Below, in pieces: positions 57-1,700 of a stretch of 64,000 nt of DNA. The stretch spans positions 1-64,000 of the forward strand of contig CACLEZ010000010.1 in assembly GCA_902606175.1 (NCBI GenBank), given 5' to 3'. Every line of letters starts with the position of its first letter. The first letter of the stretch is position 1. This DNA is from an uncultured SAR86 cluster bacterium (lineage in GTDB: Bacteria > Pseudomonadota > Gammaproteobacteria > Magnimaribacterales > Magnimaribacteraceae). The notes below the pieces were generated by a model. It did no database searches. It was not told the DNA's origin and was given only the letters and a program-made list of their open reading frames with translations. The position numbers were made by a program, and so were the translations under genes.

Positions 57-1700
57 ATGAGTTACCAAGTTTTAGCTAGAAAATGGAGACCCAATGACTT
101 TTCAGAAGTCGTCGGGCAAGAACATGTGGTCCAGGCCCTATCCAATAGTTTAGATAATAAAAAGGTTCATCAGGCATTTGTTTTAAGCGGCACCAGAGGT
201 GTTGGAAAAACTACCATTGCAAGGATATTAGCTAAGAGTCTCAATTGTGAAGAGGGACTAGATTCTAAACCTTGCGGAAAATGTCCAACATGTTTATCAA
301 TTTCTGATGGAAGTTTTATGGATTTCCAAGAAATAGATGCTGCATCAAGCAGAGGAGTTGATGACACGAAACAACTTCTAGAAACAGTCATGCATATGCC
401 TAGTTCTTCAAGATATAAAGTATACCTCTTAGACGAAGTGCATATGCTTTCAACTCAAAGTTTTAACATGCTACTAAAAACTTTAGAAGAGCCGCCAGAG
501 CACGTTATTTTTATTTTAGCTACTACCTTACCTGAGAAAATTCCTGCTACTGTTCTTTCAAGATGTTTGCAATTCAATCTTAAAAATCTCACTAACAAAC
601 AATTAATAGATCGACTCTCTTATATTCTGAAAGAAGAGGACATCGATTTTGATATGAATGCTATAGAGCAAATAGCCAGAGCAGGAAGAGGAAGCTTGAG
701 AGATTCTCTAACAATTACCGATCAAGCCATTGCCTTTTGTGAAGGTAAGCTTTCAGATGAAGCTGTAGCTAATATGCTAGGTACACTTCCTACAGACAAT
801 GTACTTAAATTGATCAAAAATATTGCTCAAAGGGATCCAAAGTCTTTATTGAGCAATCTAAATGAAATTAACCAATTAAGTATTGATTATTTTAGGTTGA
901 TGGACTTAATTCTAGAAAATCTTCAATTACTATCTTTCGCCAAAGTTTCTGAAGAGATTCTTGATGAAATTGATCTCAATAAAGGGGAAGCATTGAAATT
1001 AATGGAGCTTCTTTCTGAAGAAGATCTCCAAATGTTATATCAAATAGGACTAATTGCTAAACGTGATATGGAATTAGCACCAAGCTTGTCTGGTGGTTTC
1101 GATATGGCTCTTCTCAGAATGGTTTCTTTTATTCCTAATGAAATGGAAGAAGTTAAAAAAAAAGTTGAGTCTTTAGAAGTAGAAAATAAAACTGATACTT
1201 TTACAAATATAACTAAAACTGAAAATTCAACTGAAGATTTAAAAGAAGAAAAAGAAGAAAAAGAAGAAATAAATCGAGATATTGAGGTAAAGAATAATCA
1301 AAAAATAGATATCAGTTCAACAAATTGGAAGGGAGTATTTGACCAATTAAAACTCGATCCGGGCACAAAGCAATTAGCTTCTCATTGTTCCTTCATTAAA
1401 TCTGATGAATCAGTAATTTATTTATCTATGCCTAGCGAAAAACTAAATGTTTTTAGCGGAAAACATAGAAAACAACTTCAAGATGCTCTTTCTTCTCACT
1501 TAAATACTCAATGTAACTTATTTTTAGAGGAGGGAGAGTACTCGGAGGAATCTCCAAATCAGATCAAGGAAGAAGAAAAAAGAAAAGAATTGAAACAGGC
1601 TCAAAGAGCAATTGAGGCAGATCCAAATGTTCAAAGTTTAGTTGAAGCTTTTGGAGCTAAGGTTGTTGAGTCGTCAATAGAACCTAGAACAGAAAAGTGA
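57..1700 (+). CDS. dnaX: DNA polymerase III subunit gamma/tau
   Basis: This is the clamp-loader ATPase that loads the sliding clamp at primed DNA. Walker A GTRGVGKT is at residues 45-52, a zinc module with Cys64, Cys73, Cys76 and Cys79 follows, and LLDEVHML carries Walker B. The collar domain runs to about residue 365, then a Lys/Glu-rich linker (about 367-420) leads to a tau-like C-terminal part. At 547 aa it is shorter than the 643-aa E. coli tau. The ATG at 57 is chosen because family members begin MSYQVLARKWRP. I see no Shine-Dalgarno; TATACT at 39-44 could be a -10 box. A run of nine A inside the linker may allow a shorter gamma product. The stop overlaps recR by 4 bases. Confidence 0.97.
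   Translation: MSYQVLARKWRPNDFSEVVGQEHVVQALSNSLDNKKVHQAFVLSGTRGVGKTTIARILAKSLNCEEGLDSKPCGKCPTCLSISDGSFMDFQEIDAASSRGVDDTKQLLETVMHMPSSSRYKVYLLDEVHMLSTQSFNMLLKTLEEPPEHVIFILATTLPEKIPATVLSRCLQFNLKNLTNKQLIDRLSYILKEEDIDFDMNAIEQIARAGRGSLRDSLTITDQAIAFCEGKLSDEAVANMLGTLPTDNVLKLIKNIAQRDPKSLLSNLNEINQLSIDYFRLMDLILENLQLLSFAKVSEEILDEIDLNKGEALKLMELLSEEDLQMLYQIGLIAKRDMELAPSLSGGFDMALLRMVSFIPNEMEEVKKKVESLEVENKTDTFTNITKTENSTEDLKEEKEEKEEINRDIEVKNNQKIDISSTNWKGVFDQLKLDPGTKQLASHCSFIKSDESVIYLSMPSEKLNVFSGKHRKQLQDALSSHLNTQCNLFLEEGEYSEESPNQIKEEEKRKELKQAQRAIEADPNVQSLVEAFGAKVVESSIEPRTEK
1155..1173 (+). other. Candidate slippage/frameshift site in dnaX (A9 run)
   Basis: Nine consecutive A (1155-1163) encode Lys367-369 exactly where the collar domain ends and the linker begins. 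A shift to the -1 frame meets TGA at once and a shift to the +1 frame meets TAG within four codons. Either would give a product of about 370 residues holding the ATPase and collar domains only, that is, a gamma-type subunit. A9 runs in dnaX of Thermus thermophilus act by transcriptional slippage (family knowledge). In an A-rich genome such a run can also be chance. Confidence 0.4.

Follow-up and report, generated by a model that had tools for sequence, protein, structure and literature searches.

In Thermus, the making of tau and gamma from one dnaX gene goes together with mRNAs that vary in their number of A and with the presence of both proteins in the cell at about 1:1; the slippage at this gene is said to have been reported by Larsen et al. 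in 2000. Published passages on Thermus thermophilus dnaX describe a single tau frame, an uninterrupted A9 run, near stops in both other frames and a truncated gamma-type product (PMC5009743, PMC1088944). Escherichia coli makes a gamma lacking domains IV and V by -1 frameshifting at codon 428, where the heptamer A_AAA_AAG combines six A with one G and is accompanied by an SD-like element about 10 nt upstream and a strong stem-loop. In Chlorobi and others, dnaX carries a poly-A run of 7-10 and lies in two frames, an arrangement for which sections of Antonov et al. (2013) propose transcriptional slippage (PMC3711429). In Caulobacter, a gamma-type protein arises by proteolysis of tau, as outlined in part of a review (PMC5009743). 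Passages of a 2012 review hold that most bacteria besides enterobacteria and Thermus keep no dnaX frameshift signature and may lack gamma (PMC3290774), and the importance of gamma outside enterobacteria is an old dispute.

The dnaX gene considered here lies at the start of the window, that is, the whole 64,000-nt stretch of DNA analysed, from a 1.32-Mb assembly of SAR86, which the NCBI taxonomy places in the Gammaproteobacteria. Its features are collected in Table 1. A frame at 1697-2311 overlaps the end of dnaX and is presumably recR, given the customary arrangement of these genes and the appearance of its protein. The Pfam matches for the AAA ATPase, the lid and domain III together cover residues 20-366, the last being the C-terminal end of PF12169 (gamma/tau domain III), so that by Pfam boundaries the A9 run sits exactly at the junction of domain III and the linker. 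The run is in phase (GTT AAA AAA AAA GTT). Behind it, the -1 frame reads AGT TGA and closes after two codons, the +1 frame reads TTG AGT CTT TAG and closes after four, and tau itself is a single open frame through the run, in the window as in all relatives except L201. The preliminary description had thus read the anatomy correctly: nine A at the junction of collar and tau linker, both wrong frames stopped within four codons, and a gamma-type product of 370 residues, as the -1 stop predicts.

Table 1. Features of the dnaX locus in the window
Feature	Position	Strand	Basis
dnaX, full-length tau frame (547 aa; 547 codons from ATG)	57-1700	+	NCBIfam gamma/tau, E = 2e-186
Clamp-loader part: AAA ATPase, lid and domain III (residues 1-366)	57..1154	+	Pfam; match to 1jr3
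A9 run, codons 367-369, putative transcriptional slippage site	1155..1163	+	sequence; conservation in SAR86
TGA, stop of the -1 frame (mRNA with one A extra); predicted product of 370 residues	1166..1168	+	sequence
TAG, stop of the +1 frame (mRNA with one A less); predicted product of 372 residues	1174..1176	+	sequence
Linker found in tau only, Lys/Glu-rich	1164..1316	+	translation; lies between Pfam domains III and V
Tau domain V, polymerase alpha-binding (residues 421-541), missing from gamma	1317..1679	+	Pfam PF12170

We propose that RNA polymerase would add or drop A while copying an unbroken row of nine template T (ten or eleven in some relatives). An mRNA whose number of A is unchanged, or changed by three, would be translated into full-length tau, whereas every other mRNA would meet a stop only a few codons later and so yield gamma, of 370 residues if the mRNA carried A10 (or after a -1 shift) and of 372 if it carried A8. 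This gamma would be the complete three-domain clamp-loader ATPase minus the linker and minus the polymerase-binding domain. Residues 1-361 of the window's DnaX match residues 1-362 of the 373-residue E. coli gamma chain in 1jr3 (E = 7.6e-105), from which it follows that a 370-residue gamma would comprise the whole ATPase and collar, without the tau linker and with almost nothing extra; the predicted gamma matches the crystallised E. coli construct. We estimate at roughly three in four the probability that the A9 run serves programmed transcriptional slippage yielding tau and gamma, as in Thermus dnaX. We infer that slippage occurs, that it is RNA polymerase and not the ribosome that would slip, that tau and gamma would be made in some ratio as a result and that gamma would be used in clamp loaders.

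A first line of evidence is conservation. The order-level set held 203 genomes, with a dnaX match at E<=1e-100 in 121, of which 120 cover the junction; for family f4, 17 genes were read from 21 genomes at E<=1e-30. The gene of G019 (L249) ends before the junction and is excluded from the resulting 137, and one linker (L012) contains an N. An uninterrupted run of A9-A11 lies at the junction in 136 of these 137 SAR86 genes, in 18 of 19 genera and in all four families. In the window's own genus, 12 of 19 genomes gave a match covering the junction, and A9 is present in all 12, with protein identity down to 70% and with changed flanks. The persistence of the run and its close stops in close relatives, which the preliminary description had named as a check, is thus observed both in the genus and across SAR86. 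Within family f1, A9 or A10 occurs in 22 of 23 genes; A9-A11 lies within 35 codons past the collar motif in 13/13 genes of f2, 84/84 of f3 and 17/17 of f4, the site being defined as whichever A run is longest over those 35 codons, a definition that favours long runs. The start of the run varies from nt 1018 to nt 1118 of the gene, its phase may be 0, 1 or 2, and the peptides encoded include KKKV, KKKP, QKKKT, EKKNL, SKKKS and VKKKP. Since its place, phase and peptide all drift, it is the nucleotides that appear to be conserved. Stops follow within 10 codons in the -1 frame and within 16 codons in the +1 frame at all 135 sites examined.

Several members of the order deserve separate mention. 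G034, the sole member of its own genus (g7) in f1, carries the only SAR86 dnaX read that has no A run at the junction (L028), and this gene has no in-frame A_AAA_AAG either. G034 is nested among f1 carriers on the dnaX tree, and the absence looks like a loss; it is a natural experiment on doing without gamma, or on making it in another way. In G187 (L201, family f4), the frame is shifted directly behind an A10 run, at about nt 1044 of the gene, so that standard decoding would end in a gamma-sized protein and slippage would be needed for tau, as in the dnaX split over two frames that Antonov et al. (2013) describe; an assembly error may equally be the cause, and the dnaX copies of the other f4 genomes read are intact. 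In f2 (L077-L089), DnaX has just 487-491 residues or so and the linker from A10 to the next domain is very short, with A10 kept in all 13. In two further f4 genes, L194 (G199) and L203 (G186), A9 lies nearer the collar than in other f4 members and there are more runs of 8-9 A, as if the site were moving.

Within a single genome, an A9 run is unremarkable. The window's own genome has 57 A9 matches on both strands, and classification of 32 distinct runs puts 22 on the sense strand of an open frame of at least 60 aa, which disposes of the idea that A9 is a unique feature of this genome. Other long open frames there with a sense-strand A9 or A10 are L118, L123, L127, L133 and L142. Some such runs are thus put up with in coding frames of the genus, a point against the proposal. 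The earlier remark that A runs are common here is half true: the genome holds many, but the window has four A9 runs against 12.9 in dinucleotide shuffles. The suggestion that the place of the run is hard to ascribe to chance finds its basis in SAR86 as a whole, where conservation in 136 of 137 genes exceeds chance. When the codon order of the linkers was shuffled, A>=9 was expected in 1.19 of 19 genera, and with synonymous shuffling in 8.3, against 18 observed; the shuffled linkers were searched with the same site definition. In the protein-aligned comparison of lysine columns in f1, which is free of the longest-run bias and excludes L028 and the partial L013, the three columns at the site never use AAG (21/21 each), whereas AAG does occur in 11 of the 12 conserved lysine columns compared elsewhere. 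Across the 137 genes, 136 A>=9 runs fall at the site and 11 elsewhere, 9 of these within about 115 nt behind it, and no T>=9 run occurs anywhere in them. To judge from these patterns, selection is acting on the nucleotides of the run.

The coding sequence of the genus tells the same from the other side. In the window, a 288-kb contig of G001 and 400 kb of G013, with genes of at least 120 aa called mechanically, runs of A>=9 are depleted (13 against 42.2 expected), as are those of T>=9 (4 against 18.9), with the caveats that the window and the G013 parts share gene content and that dnaX is itself among the counted runs. A8 is not depleted (112 against 106.5 expected), A or T runs of 6-8 lie close to the expectation from codon use, and no run of ten or more was found in this material. 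Baranov and colleagues, in a section of their paper (PMC1088944), take a threshold in run length as a sign that runs of nine are slippage-prone. Because A>=9 is depleted elsewhere and kept at the junction, the genus seems to avoid such runs yet to retain the one in dnaX. A genome-scale control is small: two A9 runs of G001:C1 lie in genes that are matched (55% identity, 70% length) within the retrieved portion of G013, and one of the two is kept, that in dnaX. Among the A9-bearing frames of the window's own genome, dnaX alone has a close counterpart in G001:C1. The stops carry less weight than had been supposed. They are present, but out-of-frame stops are dense throughout these genes, and with L201 and the run-less L028 excluded neither frame taken singly has a nearer stop than elsewhere in the genes (-1, p = 0.51; +1, p = 0.07). 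The nearness of both stops jointly is modestly above background (Fisher p = 6e-4 over 18 genera). Stop proximity as strong evidence was therefore rejected, and joint nearness kept as modest support.

The short product could instead come from the ribosome, by -1 frameshifting at A_AAA_AAA within the run, in the manner of E. coli, or by sliding on AAA. Every A9-A11 run contains this heptamer, several f4 runs read A_AAA_AAA_AAG, a -1 stop is always near, and E. coli does frameshift at the related A_AAA_AAG. However, a heptamer needs no floor of nine A, and run-bearing genes never have fewer, which favours RNA polymerase, as does the finding that phase and order of stops vary by genus while both frames are closed early; that the stop reached first differs between genera is unexpected for a purely -1 ribosomal shift. 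A_AAA_AAG, the shiftiest bacterial site, is not in frame in the window, although A_AAA_AAA is. The stimulators point in the same direction, the structural part of this argument being weak: an SD-like core lies upstream at only 25 of 136 sites, where the background is 9.4% per 16 nt, and in the genus at 2 of 12, and the 60 nt downstream fold at 0 to -10.2 kcal/mol (-5.6 in the window) against -20 to -23 in E. coli. The structure argument uses this difference in absolute stability alone, as the shuffle z-score of the downstream fold (mean -0.03 over 18 genera, with at most four genes per genus) had no power, the E. coli positive control giving -0.58 and 0.19, and RNAalifold, run without a positive control, returned no structure in five genera. 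A tRNA-Lys with a CTT anticodon also stands against ribosomal slippage: G013 encodes both the CTT and the TTT form (L288, L296), a condition tied to the use of slippage in Thermus in part of a review (PMC5009743). G013 is a reduced genome and still has the two lysine tRNAs. We regard a ribosomal origin of the short product as improbable, and ribosomal slippage on A_AAA_AAA may add to a product made by RNA polymerase.

That the run has nothing to do with recoding, being a lysine-rich hinge in AT-rich genomes that is written in AAA by chance and kept for the protein, seems to us less probable again. The linker is indeed rich in Lys and Glu, the peptide never has fewer than two lysines, the minimum that an A9 can encode, and synonymous shuffling alone produces long runs in a good part of the genera. 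The near-complete occurrence across genera nevertheless goes well beyond that expectation, and neither the avoidance of AAG in f1 nor the changes of phase and peptide, the depletion of such runs elsewhere and the absence of T>=9 fit a hinge kept for its amino acids; the run is found, moreover, in genes with 44-57% G+C. Least credible of all is a contingency locus, at which replication slippage would switch tau at the DNA level. Homopolymers as long as this one do mutate, and the one assembly with a shifted frame at the junction (G187) would fit, but the tau frame is open in the DNA through the site in every other run-bearing gene, and tau is expected to be essential. What we see is a real slippage signature, conserved across the order, that most likely makes gamma by transcriptional slippage; the device of Thermus would then operate in a further lineage, and here and there in other families of E. 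coli's class.

Outside SAR86, dnaX could be read in 42 genes of other class families, which contain only four A>=9 runs, all at the junction. A strict pattern (A9 at 8-68 nt past the collar motif) was found in 13 of 369 class genomes, 12 of 368 outside SAR86, in families f69, f77, f89, f112, f115, f134 and f135; the reversed pattern occurred in 0 of 369, and so did the T9 version of the strict pattern. Such counts are lower bounds: a differing motif hides SAR86 families f2-f4 from the pattern, which also overlooks L258, a carrier of family f6 found by reading dnaX. Eleven of the 12 genomes outside SAR86 were confirmed as dnaX frames (L179 gave no row), and L152 was unreadable as dnaX. In a phylum sample, 3 of 398 genomes matched: the window's own, one already seen and one of a new family, f189. 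The resolved carrier genes have 36-57% G+C and a tau frame open behind the run. On a dnaX tree of 82 proteins, a minimum of nine gains or losses is required, and starred (well-supported) branches force five of them; the method is quick and the SAR86 branches are long, and since the rows were partly chosen for the run, the count is uninformative on frequency; the rows L180 and L261 were left out, their start motif not being found.

That genomes of 0.7-1.8 Mb, which evolve fast, keep the signature in 136 of 137 dnaX genes, and that it recurs in other families, speaks for selection on a truncated DnaX. We lean towards a wider view, in which slippage-made gamma would be ancestral and order-wide in SAR86, and this way of making it would have come or gone several times within Gammaproteobacteria, each time where domain III ends; gamma would then be the minimal clamp-loader ATPase, a short DnaX would be under selection in these genomes too, and the E. 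coli signal would be one of several interchangeable devices in its own class. If this is true, a short DnaX is maintained even in some of the most streamlined genomes of the ocean.

The literature that we searched on dnaX slippage or frameshifting and on SAR86, covered in part (including PMC5009743, PMC3711429, PMC1088944, PMC3017870 and PMC3290774), does not report the SAR86 dnaX site in the portions covered. Among the systems described, the two-frame dnaX of Chlorobi differs in that tau itself needs a slip, whereas in SAR86 tau is the unslipped product. The Caulobacter route is post-translational and requires no slippage run, unlike SAR86, which has one. E. coli shares with the window the gene, the class and, as predicted, the kind of product, a gamma without domains IV and V; the window has its A9 at codon 367, followed by a far weaker fold than in E. 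coli, and SD-like cores are few in its genus. Natural E. coli gamma extends to the frameshift at codon 428, and the gamma predicted for the window ends at 370-372. The likeness to Thermus thermophilus drawn in the preliminary description holds for the uninterrupted length of the run, its indifference to phase and the stops in both frames, but not for position: the Thermus run, in a different phylum, lies seven-eighths of the way through the gene according to the relevant passage (PMC1088944), whereas here it lies two-thirds of the way, at the end of domain III. The SAR86 relatives extend the run to as many as 11 A, against nine in Thermus, where slippage has been measured, while the SAR86 site is known from its sequence. 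Of the known systems, Thermus dnaX is thus the one whose device we believe SAR86 to use.
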